Positions 3,101 through 55,600 of a stretch of 64,000 nucleotides of DNA are shown here, one piece after another. Origin of the DNA: Plumapathes pennacea (Eukaryota; Cnidaria; Anthozoa; Antipatharia; Myriopathidae); contig OZ038464.1 in the NCBI GenBank assembly GCA_964036295.1, positions 1,244,501-1,308,500 on the forward strand. The letters run 5' to 3'. The notes beneath the pieces are model-generated. The model saw only the letters and a program-made list of their open reading frames with translations, searched no databases and was not told the origin of the DNA. Numbering within the stretch: position 1 is the first letter of the stretch; every line of letters begins with the position of its first letter. The translations under genes were made by a program, and so were the position numbers.

Positions 3101-6100
3101 AGATTGTACGTTAAGTCACCAAAAGATGGGATCCAACCAGATCTAGCACTGTACAAATAAAAACACATAAGAAAAACTGCAAAATGATACCATGTCATTT
3201 TTTTTTTTTTTTTTTTTTTAAGTAGTGCTGTTTTGTTGCCCAGAATGCATGAAATGGCATTATACAGGAAGTCTGAACAATTTCAAGGAGATATCCCCAG
3301 AGGCACCCTTGTGGGGACTGTATACTTCACTTTGAAGTAGAGAAAATTGAACTTGATCACTCTCCAGAGTGAAAGGGTAAATAACAGCAAAACTAAAAAT
3401 GCATGACAAGCTACATGATAATGCTTGTTCACTGAAATTCTCACTACATCACTTTATATTTTTTTCTGGAATAGTTGGGAGAATTTGTGTTATGAGCTCA
3501 TGAGTGACAGCTTACCATGTAAGATTAAGAAAATAGGGCATCACATTGTCCTCATAACATCGATCTAGCTCTCCCAAGCAGATTTTTACTGTTTCTTCTG
3601 TTGACGAGTCTTTGGGAACTCCCTGTAGGTAAAAACAAAGTAACAGAATAAGGTTCATGACAAAAATATGGATGGATGGATGGATGGAAAGAGCAATGGG
3701 AGACAGGAAATGTGAGGGGACGAAAGGAGTGAATAAAAAAGGAAACCTCAGAAAAACAAGTTCAACAACTTTATGAGGAAACAGGGACATAATGAACAAA
3801 ACATGTATAATAGAAAAGAGACAAGGAAGGGAGAGAAAAAATAAATGGTTGGATAAACAGACACAAATAGTCAAATACATTTAACAGATATAATATTATA
3901 TACAAACATACTTTTGTATGAACTGGTAACCTGTGAGCAGAACCTACAGTAATTCACTCTCTCTATGTAGGAAACAAAGGAAGAAGAAGGCTTTGCTAAC
4001 AAGCTCCACTTTCTCCATAGAGCATGCGTGAGCCCTATGCAACCAAGCATGTAAAAGCCTCATTTCAAAGAACACCATGGACATAAAAACAGTCAGCAGT
4101 TTACCAAACTGAACATGTGGGACAGCCCCGACTCGTATGACCGGTTTATTGAGACAAAGAAACTGGTTTGACTCATCCAAATATTTGGATAAATGGCTCA
4201 AGCATGCTCAACAAAGAAAGTTGAGGACATTGGGAGAGTCTTCTATGTTTAATACTCGGAGGCTCCGCTGCAGGGTAATGGACTTATAGACAAACAATAA
4301 AAAAGGGACAGAGAATAAAAAGAATGGGTGCACATCCTTCCAGGAAAAACAACAAAAGCTAATAATATTATTTCTATAGATGAAAATGTATTGCTTTTAA
4401 CTCACCCATCTCAAGTCACACTCAACCAGATGCAGTTTTCTCTGCTCACACCACAAGCGCAAGTCAGGGAAAATCTGCCAAGTAATGTTACACAAAACAT
4501 ATTAAGTATGGTATCATCATATCTACTTTTAGTATATAAACAGTAGTGTTTTACTGGGAAATATACTACTCATAAAATTCATATAAACTACATTCAGGAC
4601 CCATTGGTGCATTTTTCCATATCCTAACTAGTGAGGATATCGATGATGTCAGAAGCAAGAATATGGTCTGTTTTCCAATAAAGCAGTGATGTGTCTATAT
4701 AACAGAAAATCACAAAGCTTGCTCTGCTAATTTGTAAAATATTGTTGTTACCACATGAAAATATAACTGATTTATTACACAAACTCTGGTGACATAGAGA
4801 TTTCCACCACTGAGAAATGTCGTATCTGAACGTCGTATGTAAAAATACGATATTTTTTACGTGTGTTAATATCAGCCAAGCAGTGATTTTGCATGTTTTT
4901 GCATTTCTTAGTGGTGGAAATTTCTGTATCACACCAGAGTTTATGAAATAAACAGAATAATACATGGACGCTTGGAGATATGAAATTTATTTTCTCATGT
5001 TCATCTCGATATCTCACTCATTCACTTTGCTCACTCGTGAGATATCGAGATGAACACTCGAGGACAAATTTCATATCTCCGCATGCCCATGTATTATTCT
5101 CTATATCAGGATTGTTATAATTAATATCAGGAAAACTGTGAAAGGATCTTTACTTATACAGTAAATTAAAAGAAACCTAATGTTCAAAGCTTGAGTATAA
5201 TTATTACAAAATCAACACCTGATGCTGTTATATTTCATCCCTCTATCAAGGCTATAGTATACTAAAACAAATACAACATTTAGAATATCGTTGTTAGTTT
5301 TGGGGTAATATATCAAACAGTATTACAGAACTCGAATTATATTGGAAACTCTGCTAGATAAAGAAATTTGTGCAATTAAAAAAGTAGAATTGTCGACTGA
5401 GTTTATACGGCAATGAATCTTGTGCGGGGAAAAAACAAATCAGATCCTAAAACGCTTTGCTTTCTGCTGTGGTCAATTTAGCGAACCACTCAAATCATTC
5501 TAATCACTTCAGAGTTTAAGGATTACGTAAAGAGAATGGCCCCCATATTTCTTTGTATCTTCAAGTGTATTCTCATGATTGCAACAAAAAAAGGTCGCTA
5601 ATACATGATTATAATGTTGAAACTTTTTACGACTATAAAACTTGGAATACGTTACCTCTTTCACAAGGACTTCTCTCTCGGCATGAAAATCCCTGAAGGT
5701 GGAAGACACAAAGAGTCGAATAGTCTTCCAACCGCGTCGATTCTTCACCGACTCGAGTTTAAATTCGCCCGTTCGTCTATCGCATGTTTTCTTCACGACA
5801 GCCCACATATTTGTCGGATCGGAGGGTCGCAAAGCGGCTGCTTCTTCGTAGGAAAGTTGCGTGAACTTATTGCTGTCGATATATTCCGGCTTTGTTTGCC
5901 CAGATTGTTTCGGCTTCGGCGTCGGCTTCGACTTCGGAATCGGCTTCGGTGAATCAGAAGCCCTGGTTTCCTCAGGTTTTCCGTCAAGCGGTGCAGAAGA
6001 AGTATTGTTGTTTCCTGTCACCGTCACAGATTGGTTCGGATGTTCGCGTGGTTGATCCGCTTTCACAGAGTTTGTAACTGCCGGCCTTGAGGTTCCACAA

Positions 6101-6105
6101 CCCAT
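121..6105 (-). CDS. DUF4062 / STAND P-loop NTPase (TPR-protein DDB_G0287407-like), 5' part, truncated by window edge
   Basis: Nine coding exons join in frame on the minus strand: 6105-5656, 4474-4406, 3622-3516, 3148-3015, 2755-2622, 2256-2131, 1439-1347, 673-617, 263-121, all with AG/GT borders. They give about 437 residues; the last exon ends in a donor, so the 3' part lies left of the window. Residues 1-6 (MGCGTS) form an N-myristoylation plus cysteine signal. Residues 50-75 are Pro/Lys-rich. From about 129 the DUF4062 signature appears (RLFVSSTFRDFHAERE, then ECDLRWGVPKDSS and NLTCARSGWIPS). A Walker A motif GHAGSGKS lies at about 408-415. The family normally continues with the rest of a NACHT/AAA NTPase and TPR repeats; these are not in view. 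Such proteins resemble NLR-type sensors, but a sensing role here is inference. A pyrimidine-AG just before the ATG suggests an upstream 5' UTR exon. Confidence 0.88.
1619..1908 (+). mobile_element. tRNA-Ser-derived SINE, copy 1, in an intron of the DUF4062 gene
   Basis: The head resembles a serine tRNA with A box TGGCCGAGTGG (1629-1639), anticodon-loop text ACTTGAAATCC (UGA) and B box GGTTCAAGTCC (1673-1683). A second B-box-like AGTTCAAATCC follows at 1724-1734. AGTGTGGCCGAG (1625-1636) is exactly complementary to CTCGGCCACACT (1734-1745). A hairpin CCAACTGGT/ACCAGTTGG comes next, then a tail GAGACTTAAATAAAGTG and ATTT repeats. The body departs from a functional tRNA, so this is a SINE and not a tRNA gene. 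Copy 2 is at 52973-53260. Confidence 0.88.
1915..2115. repeat. Dispersed ~200-bp repeat (GATCAACTTCAATTTTCTCC family)
   Basis: TCAATTTTCTCCTTCAGT near one end and GGTTGGGAGAATCTGTATTT near the other; the same two blocks in the same order occur at 44950-45130, and fragments at 3310-3500, 20320-20395, 21290-21370 and 59370-59515. Intron of the DUF4062 gene. Class unknown. Confidence 0.65.
3310..3500. repeat. Dispersed ~200-bp repeat, another copy
   Basis: Contains GAAAATTGAACTTGATCACTC and, later, GTTGGGAGAATTTGTGTTATG, matching the family at 1915-2115. Lies between exons 3 and 4 of the DUF4062 gene. Confidence 0.55.
4535..4702. mobile_element. Foldback MITE (relative of 54671-54840), intron 1 of the DUF4062 gene
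   Basis: Shares AGTGTTTTACTGG, the central CCATATCCT...GTGAGGATATCG block and the right-hand GTGTCTATATA with the intact copy at 54671-54840, but the left terminal repeat is eroded. Confidence 0.6.
4771..4949. mobile_element. Foldback MITE, intron 1 of the DUF4062 gene
   Basis: AAACTCTGGTGACATAGAGA...TTTCCACCAC on the left is mirrored by GTGGTGGAAATTTCTGTATC...CCAGAGTTTATG on the right, giving imperfect arms of about 38 bases around a loop. No coding capacity. Confidence 0.75.
4955..5099. mobile_element. Foldback MITE, intron 1 of the DUF4062 gene
   Basis: GAATAATACATGG and GGAGATATGAAATTTAT at the left, and their mirror near TTTCATATCTCC and CCATGTATTATTC at the right, form long arms. The centre holds TCATCTCGATATCTCAC and its mirror. 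It directly adjoins the previous MITE. Confidence 0.8.
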
Positions 6106-6829
6106 AGATCTGAAAGAAAACGGTCACAACAACTTGGCTTTCTTCTTATAAAGAACACAGTAGCCGGATTTGCGACATCTTCGCCTCAGCTACATGCAAG
6201 AGTTGATTCATCTACATTTGGCACTAAGCGCCACGCAGTGAATTGATGCTTCATGCAATGTTGATTAGCAACAAGCTCATTTGCGTAATACCGAGCAACC
6301 AGCACAAACCACTAAACAATAGCTAAACTTGCCTTTCCACTTTGACGCCATATTGCCGTGCCCAGGCCCATCCGTATATGACAGCGGTAGCCTGGGTTAA
6401 AACGTTTCCTTGTCGGAGGGGAGGGGAGGGTGCAGCAAATCAATTTGCCCTTGCGTGAAGTGTTCTCAGATCAAACAGTTTTTGTGGAACGACATTTAGG
6501 AATAATCTTAGCTTTTTCATTGCTGACTTCAGCGTCGGACGCTTTGAAAATAGCCGTAAACAAAGCTTAATGGATTGTATTATGTACACGGTATCTGTGG
6601 GTTGTCTCATTACTATGAATGTTTGATAATTTTTTGTGTAAAGCTCATATCGGTTTCTGTAGTTTTCAGCTGTAAACTACACAGCTGAGTCGCGAGCAGA
6701 AGAATTGAAATAACACTCATTAATTATTGTTATTTGATTCTCCGTTACTCACAGACAGTTGTCATTTTTCCGGACTTCCTTATGAGCTCAACTGCCTTGG
6801 TCGTGTAAGTCAGTCTGAGGTCTCTGAGA
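6106..6829. other. 5' flank of the DUF4062 gene
   Basis: Between the ATG at 6105 and the satellite array. Contains a probable 5' UTR splice acceptor just upstream of the ATG. No TATA box or gene is recognised. Confidence 0.4.
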
Positions 6830-9800
6830 ATAACGGTCATTTTGGTTCATCCCTTCTAATGCGTACTACCATCTCAGCACTTATTAAAAGAAATGCATCA
6901 GACTGAGCATCATGTCAACCAGCCGTAAACTATAATGGAACGCACTAGAAGTATGCACCAGAAGGGATGCACAAAAATGACCCTATTATAGGACTTACAC
7001 GACCAAAAGAATTGAGTTAAAATGCAAGTCAAGAAAAAAACTGTATGAGTGGTGGAGAGGCCAATTAACGATAATTTCTGGTGAATTTTAAATTTTTGAG
7101 GTGAACAGGCTATGCTTTACAGCTGATTAAAATGACGGTCAGTTTGATGCATCCCTTCTAGTACTTACAGAGATCGTGGTATGCACTAGAAGGGATGCAC
7201 CAAAATGACCCTATGTTAAAGGACTCTCACAACCAAGGAAGTTGAAGTAAAAGCTGCATGAGTGACGGAGGGACATAATGACGATAATTACTGAGCGAAT
7301 TTCAAGTTTTAAAGGCCATCCAGCTTTACTTTACGGCTGATGAAAATGACGGTCAGTTTGATGCATCCCGTATAGCACTTACAGAGATCGTGGTATGCAC
7401 TAGAAGGGATGCACCAAAATGACCCTATGTTATAGAACTCACACAACCAAGGGAATTGAATCAAAATGCGAGTCAATAAAAATCAAAACTGTATGAGGGA
7501 AGGAGAAACAGATCTAATTAAAACGTTTGATGCATCTCTTCAAGATTTTAGAAAAATCGTGGTATGCACTAGAAGGGATACACCAAAACGACCTTGTATC
7601 TTGAGACTTACACGATAATGGACCTTAAAATAAATTGCAATTAAAAATGAGTAAGGACAGTATGTCAGTGACGACAATTACTGAGTGAATTTCAAATTTT
7701 TGAAGTGAACCGGCTGTACGTTACGGCTGATTAAAATAAGGTCAGTTTGACGCATTCCTGCCAGTTCTTATAGAGATCGTGGTATGCACTAAAAGGGATG
7801 CACCAAAATGACCCTATGTTATACGACTCACACGACTAAGAGAATTGAATTAAATTGCCAGTCAAAATTAGTAAAGACACTATATCAGTGACGAAGAGAT
7901 AAATTAACGATAATTACTGAGTGAATTTCAAATTTTTGAGATGATCCGGCTATACTTTAGGGCTGATTAAAACGACAGTCAGTTTGATGCATTCCTTTTA
8001 GTACTTACAGAGATCGTGGTATGCACTAGAAGGGATGCACCAAAATGACCCTATGTTATAGGACTCACACGACCAAGAGAATTGAAATAAAATGCAAGTC
8101 AATAAAAATAAAAACCGAATAAGTGAAAGAGGAAATAATTGACGATAACTAGTGGACAAATTTCAAGTTTTTTAGTGATCCATCGGTACTTATGTCTGAT
8201 GAAAATGTTGTCAGTTTCATGCATCCCTTTTAGTACTTACAGAGATCGTGGTATTCACTACAAGGGATGCACCAAAATGACCCTATGTTATAGGACTCAC
8301 ACGACCAAGAGAATTGAATTAAAATGCAAGTCTTCAAGAATAAAAACTGAATGAGGGACGGAGAAGCAAAATCTAATGAAAATGACGGTCAGTTTGATGC
8401 ATGTCTTTAAGATTTTACAAAAATCGCGGTATGCACTAGAAGGGATGCACGAAAATGACCCTATGTATTAGGACTTACACCATAATGGATGTTGAATTAA
8501 ATTGCAAGTAAAAATTGGTAAAGGCACGATGTCAGTGACGGAGAGGCAAATTGACGATATTTACTGAGTGAGTTTCAAATTTTTGAGGTGACCTGGCTAT
8601 TTTTTACGGCTTATTATAATGACGGTCAGTTTGATGCATCCCTTTTAGTACTTACAGAGATTGTGGTATGCACTAGAAGGGATGCACCAAAATGACCTTA
8701 TGTTATAGGACTCATACGACTAAGAGAATTGAAATAAAATGCAAGTCAATAAGAATAAATACTGAATGATTGAAAGGATAAATAATTGACGATAACTAGT
8801 GGGTGAATTTCAAGTTTTTAAGTTTTCCAGCTGTACTTATGTCTGATTAAAATAAGGTCAGCTTGATGCATCCCGTTTAGCACTTACAGAGATCGTGGTA
8901 TGAACTAGAAGGGATGCACCAAAATGACCCTATGTTATAGCACTCACACGACCAAGAGAATTGAATTAAAACACAAGTCTTCAAGAATCAAAGCTGAATG
9001 AGGGACGGAGAAGCAAAATCTAATGAAAATGACGGTCAGTTTCATGCATGTCTTTACGTTTTTACAAAAATCGCGGTATGCACTAGAAAGGATGCACCAA
9101 AATGACCCTATATCTTAAGACTTACACCATAATGGATGTTGAATTAAATTGCAAGTGAAAATTGGTAAAGACACTATGTCAGTACGGAGAGGCAAATTGA
9201 CGATATTTACTGAGTGAGTTTCAAATTTTTGAGGTGACGTGGCTAAATTTTACGGCTTATTATAATGACGGTCAGTTTAATGCATCCCTTTAAGTACTTA
9301 CAGAGATTGTGGTATGCACTAGAAGGGATGCACCAAAATGACACTATGTTATAGGATTCACACGACCAAGAGAATTGCAATAAAATGTAAGTCAATAAGA
9401 ATAAATACTGAATGATTGAAAGAAAAAATAATTGACGATAACTAGTGGGTGAATATCAAGATTTTAAATTATCCAGCTGTACCTATGTCTGATTAAAATG
9501 AGGTCAGTTTGATGCATGCCTTCTAGTACTTAAAGAGATATTGGTATGCACTAGAAGGGATGCACCAAAATGACTCTATGTTATAGGACTCACACGACCA
9601 AGAGAATTGAAATAAAATGCAAGTCAATAAGAATAAAACCTGAACAAGTGAAAGAGGAAATAATTGACGATAACTAGTGGGCGAATTTCAAGTTTTTAAG
9701 TGATCCATCGGTACTTATGTCTGATTAAAATGAGGTCAGTTTGATGCATCCCTTCTAGTACTTACAGAGATCGTGGTATGCACTTGAAGGGATACATCAA

Positions 9801-10918
9801 AATGACCCTATGTTATAGGACTCACACGACCAAGAGAATCGAAATAACATGCAAGTCAATAAGAATAAATACTGAATGATTGAAAGGATAAATAATTGAC
9901 GATAACTAGTGGGTGAATTTCAGGTTGTTAAGTTATCCAGCTGTACTTATGTCTGATTAAAATGAGGTCACTTTGATGCATCCCTTCTAGTACTTGCAGA
10001 GATCGTGGTATGCACTAGAAGGGATGCACCAAAATGACCCTATGTTATAGGACTCACACGACCAAGAGAATTGAATTAAAATGCAAGTCTTCAAGAATAA
10101 AAACTGAATGAGGGACGGAGAAGGAAATTCTAATGAAAATGACTGTCAGTCTGATTCATGTCTTTAAGTTTTTACAAAAATCGCGGTATGTTCTAGAAGG
10201 GATGCACCAAAATGACCCTACATCTTAAGACTTAAATCAAAATGGAAGTTGAATTAAATTGCAAGTAAAAATTGGTAAAGACACTATGTCAGTGACGGAG
10301 AGGCAAATTGACGATATTTACTGAGTGAGTTTCAAATTTTTGAGATGACCTGGCTATATTTTACGGCTTATTATAATGACGGTCAGTTTGATGCATCCCT
10401 TCTAGTACATACTGAGATTGTGGTATGCACTAGAAGGGATGCACCAAAATGACCCTATGTCATAGGACTCACACGACCAAGAGAATTGAATTAAAATGCA
10501 CGTCAATAAGAATAAAAACTGATTGAGTGAAAGAGGAAATAACTGACGATAACTAGTGGGCGAATTTCAAGTTTTTAAGTGATTCATCGGTACTTATGTC
10601 TGATTAAAATGAGGTCAGTTTGATGCATCCCTTTTAGTACTTACAGAGATCGTGGTATTCACTAGAAGGGATGCACCAAAATGACTCTATGTTATAGGAC
10701 TCAAACGACCAAGAGAATTGAAATAAAATGCAAGTCAATAAGAATAAATACTGAACAAGTGAAAGAGGAAATAATTGACGATAACTAGTGGGCGAATTTC
10801 AAGTTTTTAAGTGATCCATCGGTACTTATGTCTGATTAAAATGAGGTCAGTTTGATGCATCCCTTCTAGTACTTACAGAGATCGTGGTATGCACTTGAAG
10901 GGATGCATCAAAATGACC

Positions 10919-11554
10919 CTTTTTACAATAACACGTCAGTTTATCGCTTTGTGATTGGCTAATTTTCACTATCAATAAGAGGACAGACACATAAAATCGA
11001 GTGCTGACGACAGTAATTTGGACGAAGAAGGTGAATTTAGCTTCAATTCTACCTCAGTTCTTGCAAAAGCGACATTCGGCATTTGAAGTAGAGAACCAGA
11101 AGTGTTCAGAGGCGAATTTCCTTGAGCTTTGTCTTGAAATTGTCGAGAAAACCGCAGCAGAAAAGCGTCTAGTTTCATTTCTTTCCAACTTCTTTGACAA
11201 AATTTTATTTTGCACGCGCGAAATGCTCACGTCAAACTGTCACTTTTTGGCCAATGAAATGTCTTGAATTTCAACCTCGACCAATTAGAAAGCGGGAAAA
11301 GTTGTTCACAACATTTCGGTCAAATCGAACAAAATCCAGTTTTCTTGCGTGTTTTCCCCGTGTCGTCGCTTGAGTTTTGTTATTGTAAAAAACAAATTGA
11401 CGCCAGTTTTTTATGTGTCTGTCCTCTTATTGATCATGAAACGCGTCATAACATTGTCAAAAAGTTGCGGATCCACAACTTTTTGACAATGTTATGACGC
11501 GTTTCATGATCAATAAGAGGACAGACACATAAAAAACTGACGTCAATTTGTTAA
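10919..11554. mobile_element. Inverted-repeat element inserted in the satellite array
   Basis: The satellite text GACCCT / ATGTTATAGG is split exactly by this sequence. The ends are imperfect inverted repeats (TTTACAATAACACGTCAGTTT at the left; AAACTGACGTCAATTTGTTAA at the right). A subterminal block, TCAATAAGAGGACAGACACA, occurs at about 10972 and 11510, and in inverted form at about 11410. No transposase frame is recognisable, so it is a non-autonomous (MITE-like) element. No clear target duplication is visible. Confidence 0.7.
11391..11552. repeat. 162-bp near-perfect palindrome
   Basis: The two arms meet at GGATCC (11469-11474) and mirror each other outward to AACAAATTG (11391) and CAATTTGTT (11552) with only about two mismatches (11468/11475 and 11403/11540). 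It forms the right end of the inverted-repeat element. Such a palindrome can extrude as a cruciform and is normally unstable in cloning, so an assembly artefact should be considered. Confidence 0.9.
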
Positions 11555-13794
11555 ATGTTATAGGACTCACACGACCAAGAGAATTGAAATAATATGTAAG
11601 TCAATAAGAATAAAAACTGAATGATTGAAAGGATAAATAATTGACGATAACTAGTGGATGAATTTCAAGTTTTTAAGTTTTCCAGCTGTTCTGATGTCTG
11701 ATTAAAATGAGGTCAGTTTGATGCATCCCTTTTAGTACTTACAGAGATCGTGGTATGCACTAGAAGGGATGCATCAAAATGACCCTATGTTATAGGACTC
11801 ACACGACCAAGAGAATTGAAATAAAATGCAAGTCAATAAGAATAAAAACTGAACCAGTCAAAGAGGAAATAATTGACGATAACTAGTGGGCGAATTTCAA
11901 GTTTTTAAGTGATCCGTCTGTACTTATGTCTGATTAAAATGAGGTCAGTTTGATGCATCCCTTTTAGTACTTACAGAGATTATGGTATTCACTAGAAGGG
12001 ATTCACCATAATGACCCTATGTTATAGGACTCAAACGACCAAGAAAATTGAAATTAAATGCAAGTCAATAAGAATAAAAGCTGAACCAGTCAAAGAGGAA
12101 ATAATTGACGATAACTAGTGGGCGAATTTCAAGTTTTTTAGTGATCCATCGGTATTTATGTCTGATTAAAATGAGGTCAGTTTGATGCATCCCTTTTAGT
12201 ACTTACAGAGATTGTGGTATGCACTACAAGGGATGCACCAAAATGACCCTATGTTATAGGACTCACACGACCAAGAGAATTGAATTAAAATGCAAGTCTT
12301 TAAGAATAAAAACTGAATGGGGCACGGAGAAGCAAAATCTAATGAAAATGACGGTCAGTCTGATGCATGTCTTGAATATTTTACAAAAATCGCGGTATGC
12401 ACTAGAAGGGATGCACCAAAACGACCCTATATCTTAGGACTTACACCATAATGAATGTTGAATTAAATTGCAAGTCAAAATTGGTAAAGACACTATGTCA
12501 GTGACGGAGAGGCAAATTGACGATATTTACTGAGTGAGTTTCAAATTTTTGAGGTGACCTGGCTATATTTTACGGCTTATTATAATGACGGTCAATTTGA
12601 TGCATCCCTTTTAATACTTACAGAGATCGTGGTATGAACTAGAAGGGATGCACCAAAATGACCCTATGTTATAGGACTCACACGACCAAGAGAATTGAAA
12701 TAAAATGCAAGTCAATCAGAATAAGAACTGAATAAGTGAAAGAGGAAATAATTGACGATAACTAGTGGGCGAATTTCAAGTTTTTTAGTGATCCATCCAT
12801 ACTTATGTCTGATTAAAATGAGGTCAGTTTGATGCATCCCTTTTAGTACTTACAGAGATCGTGGTATGCACTACAAGGGATGCACCAAAATGACCCTATG
12901 TTATAGGACTCACACGATCAAGAGAATTAAATTAAAATGCAAGTCAACAAGACTAAAAACTGAATGAGGGACGGAGAACCAAAATCTAATGAAAATGACG
13001 GTCAGTTTGATGCATGTCTTTAAGTTTTCACATAAATTGTTGTATGCACTAGAAGGGATGCACCAAAATGAGCCTGTAGCTAGTGAATTACCTGAGCCTG
13101 TGAATTTCAAATTTTTGAGATGATCCAGCTATACTTTAGAGCTAATTAAAATGACGGTCTGTTTGATGCATCCCTTTTAGTACTTACAGAGATCGTGGTA
13201 TACACTACAAGGGATGCACCAAAATGACCCTATGTTATAGGACTCACACGACCAAGAGAATTGAAATAAAATGCAAGTCAATCAGAATAAGAACTGAATA
13301 AGTGAAAGAGGAAATAATTGACGATAACTAGTGGGCGAATTTCAAGTTTTTTAGTGATCCATCCATACTTATGTCTGATTAAAATGAGGTCAGTTTGATG
13401 CATCCCTTTTAGTACTTACAGAGATCGTGGTATGCACTACAAGGGATGCACCAAAATGACCCTATGTTATAGGACTCACACGACCAAGAGAATTAAATTA
13501 AAATGCAAGTCTTCAAGAATAAAAACTGAATGAGGGATGGAGAACCAAAATCTAATGAAAATGACGGTCAGTTTGATGCATGTCTTTAAGTTTTTACAAA
13601 ACTTGTGGTATGCAATAGAAGGGATGCACCAAAATGACCCTATGTTATAGGACTCATAGGACCAAGAGAATCGAATTAAAATGCAAGTCAAAAGGAAGAC
13701 ATAGGTCCGCAAAGCGTACGTGAAGCTATTTGCTAGTTGATGATAGTTTATGATAGGTAGTTCGCGTTACAACGGGGCACGAACTATCATCGAA

Positions 13795-18964: not shown

Positions 18965-28958
<9,994 letters not shown>

Positions 28959-36750: not shown

Positions 36751-37470
36751 TTTGTAATTTAACATTTTCACTGCTAAAAATAAATTTAACTCGACCAACG
36801 AAAACGTAAATCGATCAAAAATGTACACTGTGTCAATAATGCACACGTTGTGTTTGAGCAGAGTTATCGCCTTTTTTCAATTTCAACCGTGAAAAAAAAA
36901 ACATTTATAGGCATAAAAATCTTAGGTTTTGCTTCCAAAGTCTCATCGTTGTATTAATGTCCGAATTATGACAGGTGTGCGGTGGGCTTCCTTCATTCTG
37001 TTGAGTCATTGTTTCTATACCTATTATTTAAATAGCCCTATTGTGTGATAATATTCGAGTTCGACAGGTGACACAAAATTCGCAATAACAAATAGACCTA
37101 CATTTCATACAGTTAGGGCAGGGGATTCAAACTTTACTAGTCGTCAAATGGTTTCGTCAAATTTAGAGAATTGCCTATAGCGTTTTGTCTTTTATATGAT
37201 CGTTGGTAGGGTTCGCATTACGTACAGTCGACACACATATGCACGCGTGCTCACGAACATACACGCACACGCATGTGAATAATAATAAGAACACGAACTA
37301 CAAAAACAAGACAAGGACAAGGACAAAACAAATACAAAGAGCCACAAAAATAGAGACAAGGACAAGAACCACAAAAACAAGACAAGAAAGGGATGCACTC
37401 ATTGTTAGCAGGCTAATCCTCCTGAATAAACCAATAAATAGAAAAAAGTTGAATAAATTTGTGATTTTGT

Positions 37471-37550
37471 GAGCCCAAGTAATAGCAGCCATGGACAGCT
37501 GTTTCGGCCTTATTAGGCCTCGTCAGCATGGCATAGCTATACTTGGGCTC
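37471..37550 (-). ncRNA. Type-I hammerhead ribozyme (Penelope-like element / retrozyme type)
   Basis: Read on the minus strand, the core is CUGACGA, helix II GGCCU-AAUA-AGGCC, then GAAAC-AGCUG-UC with cleavage expected after the C at 37494. Position 7 of the core is the variable one, so CUGACGA is allowed. Helix III is tiny and palindromic (ACAGCUGU), which in known examples acts as a dimer. Helix I is long: GCCAUG pairs with CAUGGC, AUAGC with GCUAU across a small internal loop, and GAGCCCAAGU with ACUUGGGCUC, perfectly closing 37471-37480 against 37541-37550. All core bases are present, so self-cleavage is predicted. Hammerheads of this shape are known from Penelope-like elements and retrozymes. 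I see no reverse transcriptase or second copy next to it, so the parent element is not identified. Confidence 0.88.
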
Positions 37551-37994
37551 GGGTTAGATACTAGAACTCAACAAGCTGAATGAGAGAAAACCTGATAGGG
37601 TCAACAAAGGAAAGAGCAAATTTGTGAGTGAGGATGGTTAAACAAACCATTCACTGAGCGGAAAATTCCCAAGAATTCGTCTCGACCGTGGGCTTCTTTG
37701 AACTGATAAGTAACAAAACCCGAAAGTCTTCTTTCACTTTTTTAGAATAAATATTGGAATAATGAGCGCCTCAAAACAATAAAATGAGTAATCAATCACC
37801 TGAAACATATATAAACCCTAAATTAACCAGTGAGACATATTAATTTTTGGGAAAACAAAGGAAAATTGGTCCGATCTCCATTTTTTTTGAAGTGTGAAAA
37901 GCGGTCGAATCTACAATGAAAGTAAATCGAATCCCGCTAACTAAGATGTTCCACGAAGCAAGTTATTGATCTATTCATATACAGTTCATTAAGT

Positions 37995-38273
37995 CTTTCC
38001 GTCCACACTAATGCATTTTCAAAAATCGTCGTTTTCAAAACCTTCGTTTTCGCCAGCTCACACGAATCCTCCATTTTCGAGTTACCCGTCCGGACTCATT
38101 CGTTTTATTTGAAAACGTATCCGCTTTCTAAAGACTAAACCTTGAGAAGCGTTTTTGAAAACTCCCGTTTTCATAAACCTCCGCTTTCAAGTCATCGTTT
38201 TAGTGTGGACGGAAAGCAAAAACGCATAAAAGAGTATGCGTTTTCAAACGACTAGGATTAGTGTGGACGGGGT
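37995..38273. mobile_element. Inverted-repeat element with CTTTCCGTCCACACTA ends
   Basis: CTTTCCGTCCACACTA (37995-38010) is the exact mirror of TAGTGTGGACGGAAAG (38201-38216), and a further TTAGTGTGGACGG occurs at 38261. The inside is rich in CGTTTTC and GAAAACG. The two right ends suggest an internal duplication or a nested copy. Confidence 0.75.
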
Positions 38274-39016: not shown

Positions 39017-39300
39017 AATAGTCAAATGAAATCTAAAGGTGTGACCACTCAAATGAAAGCTCTCAATGAGTACACTTCCCCTGGAAGATGTAATGGCGGA
39101 CAGCAGGTGTGAGCACCCGAATGAAAGTTCTCAGTGAGTACATCCTTATAGCAGTGTTCATTTCCAACTCCTGAACTGTCAAATGAAACCGGGTTAAGGT
39201 GTGATCCCTCAAATGAAAGCCCCCACTGAGTTCATTCTAATAGCAGTGTTCACTTCCAACTTCTGAACTGCCCTGAACGAAACCAAAAGGTGTGATTCAG
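39017..39300. repeat. 89-bp minisatellite, locus D (about 3 units)
   Basis: Three diverged 89-bp units; the first is interrupted after GAGTACA by CTTCCCCTGGAAGATG and resumes with GTGTGAGCACCC. Confidence 0.85.
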
Positions 39301-50744: not shown

Positions 50745-51730
50745 TGAAATTTCTTGATGAGTACATTCGAGCAGCACTGTTCACTATACACGCAACTCCA
50801 ACACCCAAAGGTGTGACCACTCAAATGAAAGCTCTCAGTGAGTACATTCTAATAGCAGTGTTCACTTCCAACTCCTGAACTGTCAAATGAAACCTCAAGG
50901 TGTGACCACTCAAATGAAAGCTCTCAATGAGTACATTCTAATAGCAGTGTTCACTTCCAACTCCTGAACTGTCAAATGAAACCTCAAGGTGTGACCACTC
51001 AAATGAAAGCTCTCAGTGAGTACATTCTAATAGCAGTGTTCACTTCCAACTCCTGAACTTTCAAATGAAACCTGAAGATGTGACCACTCAAATGAAAGCT
51101 CTCAATGAGTACATTCTAATAGCAGTGTTCACTTCCAACTCCTGAACTGACAAATGAAACCTCAAGGTGTGACCACTCAAATGAAAGCTCTCAATGAGTA
51201 CATTCTAACAGCAGTGTTCACTTCCAACTCCTGAACTGTCAAATGAAACCTCAAGGTGTGACCACTCAAATGAAAGCTCTCAATGAGTACATTCTAACAG
51301 CAGTGTTCACTTTCAACTCCTGAACTGTCAAATGAAACCTCAAGGTGTGACCACTCAAATGAAAGCTCTCAATGAGTACATTCTAACAGCAGTGTTCACT
51401 TCCAACTCCTGAACTGTCAAATGAAACCTCAAGGTGTGACCACTCAAATGAAAGCTCTAAATGAGTACATTCTAATAGCAGTGTTCACTTTCAACTCCCG
51501 AACTGTCAAATGAAACCTCAAGGTGTGACCACTCAAATGAAAGCTCTAAATGAGTACATTCTAATAGCAGTGTTCACTTTCAACTCCTGAACTGTCAAAT
51601 GAAACCTCAAGATGTGACCACTCAAATGAAAGCTCTAAATGAGTACATTCTAATAGCAGACTGTTCACTTTCAACTCCGGATCTATCAAATAAAACCTAA
51701 AGATGTGACCACTCAAACTAAAGCTCCAAT
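50745..51730. repeat. 89-bp minisatellite array E (~11 units)
   Basis: The longest and most uniform array: CCTCAAGGTGTGACCACTCA recurs every 89 bases from about 50890 to 51600, with degraded units at both ends. No gene overlaps it. Confidence 0.95.
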
Positions 51731-52310
51731 AGTAAATGCTGATAACAGCAAAATAAGCTGTTAGTGTGATCATGTTCATTCTACTTTTTAACCTTGACCC
51801 ACTGACAAAAGGACTTTATAGAACCGTGACAACTCACAATACAGACATTCATATCATTTTCTAGAGCATTTTCTTTGCATTTTTCAAAAAAAAAAAAAAA
51901 AAAAAAAAATGAAGAATGAAAACTTTTCCATTCTCTTGCGCTTGCGTTTTGCTTGCTTCACAAATTTTATCGTGTGAACCGGTCGCTTGCGCTTGCGCTT
52001 GCTCGTGTGAACCAGGCTTTATAGTCTAGTTCGGGAAGTTGCGAAAATAATCACGGTTTGCAAAAAAATACAGATTGATAGATAGTAAAAAAATATTAAA
52101 CGAAGACAGTGGCTGAAAACACTGAAGAAAAACCTCGTGTCAACAATGCACTGATCGGTGTGACGTCAAATGACGTCATCCAATATGGATTCCCGACTGG
52201 TTGGTAGCGTTGCGATGCTTGTAAAACATGTGCTTATAAGCTTACCACGTGTTATTCGATCTGTAGCATGCGGGTAAAATCCCGTTACAAGTCTAACAAA
52301 CTGGTTTCTT

Positions 52311-52697: not shown

Positions 52698-55600
52698 ATG
52701 TCGCATTCTCATTTCGGTAGACTGTCTCGCGGATTTATTAGCAGTGTCACCAGCCAAGTTCGCGGAATGAGTTCGACAGCGAAGCAAAAGGTTCTTGTAA
52801 CGAGAAGAATTCCAGAGAAGGCGATGAGGATGTTACGAGCTGCGCCAAAGTGTGTATCATCAATTTGCGCTTTTATTTTTCCTGTTTTATTGTTTTGTTA
52901 GGTCAATTGTGACTCTTTGATATACAATCAACTCCCTCTAAGACGGACAGTCCCTCGAGACCAGTTCCATAAAATAAAAAAATAAAAATAAATCACTTTA
53001 TTTAAGTCTCGATGTATTTAGCACTGCCGTGCTAATTGGGGAGACTTGAAATGCAGAAACTAAATATCATAAAGTGAACACAAATTCGTTAAGAATCCCA
53101 ACTGGTCGGAGGCTAACCAGTTGGCTATTTACATAGTGTGGCCGAGGATTTGAACTCAGGGCTACCGTGTTGCAAATTCAGCTAGTGGTCAGAGCGGACT
53201 TTAACCTGGGACCTCCGGATTTCAAGTCCGGTGCCCTAACCACTCGGCCACACTGCCTCCGTCTCCATCTGTCCATTTTAAAGAGGTGTCTGCGTCTTTA
53301 TGGAAAGTTTAGCAAGTTAAAGTAACTGAAAAAACGGCAGGGACTACTCCTACTAGGTGTCTGTCTTAGGAGGTGTCCGTCTTAGAGGGGTGTCAGTTAA
53401 GGGGGAGTTGATTGTATTTTGCTTCATTGTGTTTGCTATATATTTTTTTATTTTAATCTATTTTTGGTTTGTTGAATATATATGTATTCACAGCCTTGCT
53501 CTTGACATCTGGGATACAGACAACCCGATTCCAAGAGAGGAATTACTCAAGAGAGTAGCAGGAGTTGATGGATTGTACTGTTTGTTGACAGAAAAGATTG
53601 ACAATCAACTGTTGGACTTGGCAGGTACAGCAATGGCTCTACAAAAAATTATCTGCTTTATATCCCTAGCTTCAGTATCAGTTGCTGAAACAAGGTTTAA
53701 ATACTCAAAGTATCTTCCAACATCTTTTCAACATCTGTTTTTGACATGTTCATACTTCTTGTGATCATGTGATATTTTTGTATCAGGTCCACAGCTCAAG
53801 ATTGACATAAGAGAGACAAGCAAAAGGTGACAGCCTATCAAGCATCCACAGTTGAAACACATGATTTAATTATCATACACACACACATTCAATCCATGTC
53901 TCATTCACAAATTTGTATTAAATAGAGGATGTTAAATTTAGTAACAATATTGTACTTGTACATTGCATGTTGTGTTCCCAATAAAGCTTTGGCTTTATTC
54001 AAGCAAATTCCATACCCAGTAAAGCTTCACCTGATGCAAGAAATATTCAATAAATTATAAGGAAACTTTTAGCTTGAAATATCAAAGTAATATCCTCCAG
54101 ACAGTTTAATATTGTACTTATGTTTATTCATCCATTTTAAGAAACATCCCAGTTGGTTTTACTCCAGATGTTTTGACAGATGCAACGGTAAGTGGGTGAC
54201 CCCAATTTAAAAATACTGTAGGTCCCTACTTTTTGGGTAACAGGAGGCAAGTAGTATGCATGGTCTGATTGGTAAATTCTGATAATTTTATTGCTGTGTG
54301 CATTTTCATAACTCAAAATAGCACATGTGTGTCAATTTGACATCAGCCTGCATCAAACTTCTTTTTTTCTTGTTGTCTTTGCTAAGTTGTCATCATTTTG
54401 CTTTATCTTATAAGATAAATAAAACATACTACATGTATGTTGAGTTATAGGCTGAAACACTTGGGCATTTGAAAGAACCCCTGTCTATACAGTATCTAGA
54501 ATCAGTCTGTCACATCCTGTTTAATTTCTTTATACTTCTATCATGCTTTTTCAAACGCCCTTATGCTCCTACAACTTAATGTAGCACACAAATGTTTACA
54601 GTGAATGCTTTTTAGTTTTGATTGAAGCTGCCAAGAATGGGTTCACTGTAATATATTTTCTATTATTATATAGACACGAGTGTTTTACTGGAAAATATAC
54701 CGTGCGTAAAATCCATACAAAACTACATCCGGGACCCGAGTGGCGTATTTTCCATATCCTCACTTGTGAGGATATCGTTGGCATCATTTCCCGTTTTTGC
54801 ACGGTTGTTTGTGCAATTTCTCGTAAAACACTCGTGTCTATATAATAAAAAGAAAATTACACGGCGGCTTGAAGATATGGATTTTATTTTCTCGTGGTAA
54901 AAACAATATTTTACTCACTCGTGAAGCACTTGTTCGTAAAATGTTGTTTTTACCACTTGAAAATAAAATTCATATCTTTGTGCCACCGTGTAATATCCTC
55001 TATTTATGTTTCAGGCCACACTGACTGTTGCACTTTTGCTGGCTGTGCAACGGAGGCTGTTAGAATCTGCTGAGGAGGCAAAGATGTATGTTATCTAGAA
55101 AATAAGTAACATTATGTAATAGCAATGTCTTTTATGCAATGTCTTCAAAATCAAAGATTGTCAAAAGTTAATGTTTTTATTGTTTTGGTTTCAGTGGTGG
55201 GTGGGGCACGTGGAAACCCATGTGGATGTGTGGACCGACTTTAGCAGGCAGCACTGTGGGAATTGTGGGCCTTGGCAGAATTGGTGAGATTTGTTTTGAA
55301 GAGTTAGTGATTTCAAAGTAGTAAAGTCATATATATCTTGGTGGAATGATTCAACAGGGTTTGACAAAGGGCACATTCAAGTGGGTCTATTCCAGAAGAG
55401 GAATAGCGATACTGATTGATGAAATATTTTGCTTTGGAGCTGAATTGTGTCAAAATGTATTTGGAGCTCTTCGAAATGTCAGCATGAAGGTTTTGAAAAC
55501 AATACCGAAATACTTTTTCCCTAGATCAAGCAAAACTTTGGATCGTTTTTGCTATTCCTATTCCGGAATACGGTCAATCGAACACCTTAAGTGTCAGTAA

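Follow-up and report, generated by a model that had tools for sequence, protein, structure and literature searches.

A hammerhead hairpin fragment and its retrozyme family in Plumapathes pennacea, with insertion ends resembling those of Penelope-like elements

Hammerhead-bearing retroelements of animals and plants

Metazoan non-LTR retrozymes of the cnidarian type, as far as the available accounts describe them, resemble the family reported here in several respects: a type I hammerhead lies in a small unit, copies are single or tandem, duplications exceed 4 bp, and there is no LTR. In Acropora millepora, units of 220-245 bp give rise to linear and circular RNA, according to the available sections of the primary paper (PMC7229834, Cervera and de la Pena 2020). 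The unit in P. pennacea measures 258 bp by comparison. Plant LTR retrozymes are also hammerhead-bearing and non-autonomous and lack a protein-coding region, and RNA circles are known for them. They differ from the present family in placing the hammerheads in LTRs of ~350 bp, and in possessing a primer binding site, a polypurine tract and 4-bp duplications (PMC7761336, available text).

The accessible parts of three sources deal with the helper of retrozymes. The primary paper treats Penelope-like elements as a strong candidate helper only (PMC7229834), and a curation guide states that retrozymes may depend on them (PMC8969392). A 2020 review describes metazoan retrozymes as devoid of a conserved motif from which the helper retrotransposon could be deduced (PMC7761336).

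Insertions have been described in detail for two Penelope-like elements. In the anole element (Poseidon), two adjacent internal start sites of reverse transcription explain an optional tail of 30-40 bp. Cutting and extension involve both DNA strands, between which no difference in start site was seen, and hammerhead cleavage is dispensable for insertion in vitro (PMC11167929). In rotifer Penelope, an inverted arm completes the insert, and a tail of 31 bp is present on one inverted arm. Its duplications are 8-10 bp long, one insertion being without any, and the authors attribute the inverted copies to self-priming on the antisense template (PMC3846280, in the sections available).

The locus described here lies in the window, the whole stretch of 64,000 nucleotides of P. 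pennacea DNA that was analysed. The best explanation as a whole, which we regard as likely, is that the locus is a hairpin-only retrozyme fragment from a family with Penelope-type insertion, for which a Penelope-like protein acts as the mobiliser. The locus itself is minor, a hairpin-only fragment from an element of known kind; its family gives testable evidence on how retrozymes move.

The hammerhead hairpin in the window

The features of the locus are as follows.

37455..37464, no strand: candidate target-site duplication, AAATTTGTGA on the plus strand; exact 10-bp repeat, weak
37467..37555, minus strand: inserted retrozyme fragment, hammerhead hairpin, unit 63-151 of 258; the sole block matching the unit
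37488..37532, minus strand: type I hammerhead core (RF00163); 34.0 bits in the local scan, absent from the whole-window scan
37493..37494, minus strand: predicted self-cleavage site, after GUC, from the conserved core position
37495..37502, minus strand: helix III palindrome ACAGCUGU, loopless, from sequence and two-strand co-fold
37506..37519, minus strand: helix II and loop II, GGCC UAAUAA GGCC, from sequence
37556..37617, minus strand: 62-bp interval from the hairpin to the candidate duplication, without a further match in the genome
37618..37627, no strand: second copy of the candidate target-site duplication; exact 10-bp repeat, weak

Read along the minus strand from 37555 to 37467, the type I hammerhead contains one side of helix I, CUGACGA, GGCC UAAUAA GGCC, GAAA, CAGCUG, UC and the other side of helix I. 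The Rfam model RF00163 (Hammerhead_1) matches the core over its full length (model 1-45 of 45) with all core bases present, at a score of 34.0 bits (cmscan of 37300-37750; E = 7.8e-7 for 451 bases). The gathering score of the model is 34, which the window hammerhead equals. A cmscan of the whole window at the gathering threshold returns two tRNA matches only, and the hammerhead is unlisted. Thus, the Rfam score lies right at the cut-off and only just qualifies.

The fold of the 91-nt segment has a free energy of -45.1 kcal/mol, versus -21.48 +/- 3.2 kcal/mol for shuffled sequences (z -7.38, with 0/200 shuffles as stable). This best fold of a single strand is not a hammerhead, and the hammerhead folds lie at -38.8 or -37.8 kcal/mol. 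Helix III is written as an 8-nt palindrome that leaves no loop, and such a helix is expected from modelling to be weak within one molecule. When two strands are co-folded, a double hammerhead is predicted with a common 8-bp helix III, at -94.3 versus 2 x -45.1 kcal/mol. These models suggest that the window hammerhead may be active as a dimer, with helix III pairing between two RNA molecules. In the available sections of PMC7229834, most invertebrate retrozyme hammerheads are described as cutting efficiently as single motifs, which counts against a need for dimers; those of amphibian retrozymes, with a shorter helix III, require them.

An earlier note on this DNA had described a complete minus-strand hammerhead. 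All core parts, the full RF00163 model and the fold (z -7.38) bear out this description, and the position of the motif and the cut expected between 37494 and 37493 are correct as judged from the conserved core. The palindromic three-base-pair helix III of that note stands as a palindrome, with the letters instead forming the loopless 8-nt ACAGCUGU. The proposed Rfam covariance check ends in a tie by Rfam alone (34.0 bits against 34 locally, unlisted in the whole window), and it is the copies in the genome that decide.

The retrozyme family and its insertion ends

The 290-Mb assembly, consisting of 24 contigs, contains the exact-core pattern at 109 places and one helix I half at 129 places within 3 mismatches, with 0 for each reversed control. 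Hammerhead_1 yields at least 37 matches, at least 34 of them over the cut-off (74 of 41,234 candidates scored). The highest score among the matches listed is 42.2 bits, and the window copy is not one of these. A query of 401 bp from the window yields at least 51 matches including the window itself (40 of 252 candidates scored), and the 50 non-self matches are all confined to query 157-261, which comprises the hairpin plus a few adjoining bases.

Six of the 68 loci first fetched contain a second type of hammerhead, and the rest, except the window, carry the body of a 258-bp unit in whole or in part. The unit bears a type I hammerhead and occurs in single, partial and tandem copies, including a trimer at C3:12706823. 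Flanking repeats of 9-19 bp are often present around the first-type relatives that were fetched, which are, as judged from their sequences, metazoan non-LTR retrozymes. Core conservation among the copies was given no weight, as the pattern used to fetch many of the loci demands the core. The palindromic helix III is part of the exact-core pattern and is common to the retrozymes of this genome; in itself it does not point to Penelope elements.

Tandem units differ by 3.9% on average (15 within-element pairs), versus 5.6% for 3529 pairs from different regions with duplicated insertions retained. The margin is modest, so the argument from identical tandem units to a circular template was set aside, and a circular template stays a candidate.

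The duplication AGCATAAAAACTG marks one insertion that is repeated at 9 places, including C5:8872302 and C5:17049424, and again at loci L106 and L107, in both of which the hammerhead GAAA is mutated. The recurring insertion is apparently carried by a larger repeat. Allowing 3 mismatches, the tail motif of the retrozyme is found at 127 places (0 in the control). A Penelope element with the same tail was rejected as a candidate on the basis of four tail places inspected outside the hammerhead lists (L106-L109), which are all retrozyme copies (4/4). Two of these four loci lie in a larger repeat and have a mutated GAAA.

The second hammerhead type (CTGATGA...CCCAAATA loop) resides inside a highly similar repeat of ~3 kb. 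Nine copies were fetched: L044, L048, L050, L055, L066, L067, L077, L079 and L080.

The insertion ends were analysed for a set of listed and fetched loci with a hammerhead core or block, rather than for all loci of the genome. The 78 elements listed were reduced to 69 by dropping nine second-type loci and became 70 when one nearby element was split off. These 70 elements were mapped on the circular unit and represent 60 distinct events after removal of elements with the same 3' flank. The 3' ends cluster at two sites that are ~40 nt apart and whose ranges were chosen after seeing the end data: site A (unit 251-8) accounts for 31 events and site B (unit 36-52) for 19. The other ten ends are at units 10, 14, 19, 29, 32, 151, 164, 234, 234 and 248. 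The ribozyme cut, after unit 124, is not where the insertions of the family end: none of the 60 events has a 3' end within 20 nt of it. The two flanks share at least 9 bp in 41/60 events when taken from the same insertion and in 36/3540 mismatched flank pairings; the target-site duplications in these 41 events thus exceed 4 bp.

An inverted, head-to-head arm is present in 19 of the 60 events. Both outer ends can be assigned in 13 of these, and all 13 combine A with B. The remaining six consist of five with B and an unassigned end and one with A and an unassigned end; C12:8124188 is scored as unassigned at one end, where an earlier alignment had ended at unit 254. Of the seven loci added later, five (L101-L105) were taken from the hammerhead list and two (L108-L109) from that of the tail motif, which biases these two toward containing that stretch; L106 and L107 were excluded as repeats of an insertion already counted. 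The 3' end lies at A or B in 6/7 of the later loci, L103, which ends at unit 12, being scored outside A/B, and A is combined with B in all four that are inverted. No A/A or B/B pair occurs among the 17 assignable inverted elements (13 plus 4 later). If the arms were independent and took either site with equal chance, 17/17 A + B would have a probability of ~8 in a million, a figure to be read with the post hoc choice of the ranges.

The two arms at C2:34025567 carry different loop variants of the hammerhead, CCCAAAAA and CCTAATAA, so two RNA molecules were probably used at this locus. An A/B pairing that arises from one RNA common to both arms was therefore rejected as a general explanation.

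Twin priming by a LINE can likewise invert the 5' part of an insert and leave 9-19 bp target duplications, and a LINE could accordingly be proposed to move the retrozymes in place of Penelope-like elements. We consider this unlikely. Twin priming should give varied internal starts, whereas the outer end of the inverted arm is located at A or B in 18/19 events, and A is paired with B in every element with both ends assigned. Moreover, the main end class, A, follows ...TATTCTGATTA and lacks an A-tail.

The anatomy of the insertions is instead like that of Penelope-like elements. The two end sites of the retrozyme family lie ~40 nt apart, in keeping with the optional 30-40 bp tail of those elements, and the head-to-head copies have a tail on one arm. 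Shared features, as far as the available descriptions of Penelope-like elements extend, are two internal starts, an optional tail of ~31-40 bp, a head-to-head inverted arm with the tail on one arm, similar duplications and a hammerhead. The differences are that the retrozyme appears to be non-autonomous, and that the lack of A/A or B/B pairs (0/17) is not stated in those descriptions; a rule of A with B is not stated for the anole element (PMC11167929). Several points count against the Penelope reading: 10/60 ends are at neither A nor B, and 6/19 inverted events lack one assigned end. The window copy also has neither end and shows only a weak 10-bp repeat, tandem units give modest support at most for a circular template, the anole study saw the strands alike in start site, and the rotifer study accounts for inverted copies by self-priming.

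Compared with metazoan retrozymes as covered by the available text of PMC7229834, the window copy is distinguished by consisting of the hairpin only, and the two 3' end sites and inverted copies joining A and B receive no mention there. Neither the word 'inverted' nor the word 'tail' occurs in PMC7229834. Among the titles and abstract openings listed by a literature search, which draws mostly on open papers, none gives an account of such ends for retrozymes.

Given this likeness in insertion anatomy, a Penelope-like protein is the most likely mobiliser of these retrozymes, and the ends of the family support the suspected idea that Penelope-like enzymes move animal retrozymes. In the proposed mechanism, the type I hammerhead of the retrozyme RNA would cut tandem transcripts into monomers of ~258 nt, which may be circularised by analogy with corals. 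An enzyme supplied in trans would open the target DNA and copy the RNA from internal site A or B, start sites that stand away from the ribozyme cut. Both target strands would often be extended, giving head-to-head copies with one arm from A and the other from B.

A broader proposal, to which we give even chances, is that animal retrozymes are clients of the Penelope machinery, which would have two fixed start slots that are always filled as A plus B when both strands are copied. The slots could hold different RNAs, as at C2:34025567, perhaps joined via the hammerhead palindromes. The end signature of the retrozymes matches Penelope biochemistry, so the helper question is directly testable with a Penelope protein, retrozyme RNA and two predicted starts. 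A Penelope helper, if true, would help explain why hammerheads are found in both kinds of element.

Origin of the window copy and other features of the window

The window locus consists of the 89-bp hammerhead hairpin alone with a few bases on each side. The unit body is absent, and the DNA around is otherwise unique. It is the sole outlier with just the hairpin among the first-type loci fetched. By its sequence, the feature is classed with the metazoan non-LTR retrozymes as a short fragment and not as a full member. The hairpin of the window copy recurs without a difference in 10/71 near-full copies, the window copy itself counted, and its insertion is thus probably recent.

A self-BLAST of 37301-37700 finds no other copy within the window. 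The upstream flank at 37556-37700, used as a 145-bp query, matches only itself in the genome. The downstream flank, a query of 317 bp, has matches elsewhere only at query 128-244, an ACAAG-rich repeat.

On the minus strand the 10-bp direct repeat reads TCACAAATTT; a gap of 2 bp separates one copy from the hairpin, and a gap of 62 bp the other. It is weak, since 967 of 20,000 placements drawn at random in the fetched loci (~1 in 20) equal it, and so ranks as a candidate target duplication rather than a convincing one. If it were the target duplication, the insertion would be ~151 bp long, including 62 bp that match nothing else in the genome.

The 3' end of the window copy is at unit 151, the base of the hairpin, which is neither site A nor site B. 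As the family ends at those two other sites, the copy appears to be an internal fragment. It probably originated by aberrant priming or from a DNA break patched with hairpin cDNA, and it is probably inert. Solo terminal repeats of rotifer Penelope without duplications have been ascribed to recombination or deletion (PMC3846280, available text); by analogy, either is also a possible origin for the window copy.

The locus might instead be a complete but decayed retrozyme of another subfamily, with the hairpin kept and the body diverged beyond recognition. A downstream stretch of 48 columns does resemble the unit, with a score of 33 that is reached by 3/500 shuffles against the 3' body and 14/500 against the whole body, and an upstream 9-mer is shared with the unit at nearly the same spacing. 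This resemblance is T-rich and restricted to one side, however, and shuffles often score as well as the upstream side (241/500 and 95/500). The flank searches point the same way, the upstream flank being without another copy and the downstream one matching only over query 128-244 of 317. It is also difficult to see how the body could have become unrecognisable next to a hairpin that is identical to other copies. A full diverged retrozyme was dropped on these grounds as quite improbable.

A complete core without a retrozyme body could also be expected of a solo hammerhead that the host has domesticated for processing one of its transcripts, comparable to the intronic hammerheads conserved in amniotes. 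The identity of 10/71 near-full copies, this one among them, is as in recent mobile DNA, and the loopless helix III is expected from modelling to be weak in one molecule. We consider domestication very improbable, and a retrozyme fragment remains the preferred reading of the locus.

The suggestion of the earlier note that the hairpin is a retrozyme remnant is confirmed by the presence of unit 63-151 and by relatives with the 258-bp unit across the genome. Its statement that the hammerhead stands alone is accurate at the locus, with no second copy in the window and no body beside the hairpin, and fails genome-wide, where 109 and 129 places were found. A solo retroelement end, another option raised there, is doubtful for an internal fragment of a family that ends at two other sites. 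The palindromic helix III on which the note founded a link to Penelope is weak ground, being common to the retrozymes of this genome, whereas a Penelope-type mechanism does find support in the insertion anatomy of the family. The genome search that it advised for copies with flanking direct repeats did find them, as seen in the common flanks of at least 9 bp in 41/60 events.

Several other features are present in the window. A perfect 17-bp inverted repeat (37995-38011 and 38200-38216) adjoins the hammerhead locus and bounds ~220 bp, resembling a small DNA transposon. A tandem unit of 232 bp forms multiple arrays in 7688-12965. An 89-bp minisatellite unit forms closely similar arrays at 25142-25869 and 50808-51748, with short related copies at 39025-39295.

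Two similar tRNA-Ser-like sequences, at 1622-1693 on the plus strand and 53187-53257 on the minus strand, lie in opposite orientation and both exceed the Rfam cut-off for tRNA. Of the two, only that at 1622-1693 (anticodon TGA) is called by ARAGORN. The pair could be genes or tRNA-derived repeats. The minus strand at 5512-6123 encodes the start of a DUF4062-like protein, at 20 bits under the curated cut-off of 24.7; one relative bears the source name nephrocystin-3. Among 80 related proteins, two in all came with a name from their source, the other being 'hypothetical protein'. An ANF-receptor exon at 23719-24096, also on the minus strand, scores 26.5 bits, above the cut-off.
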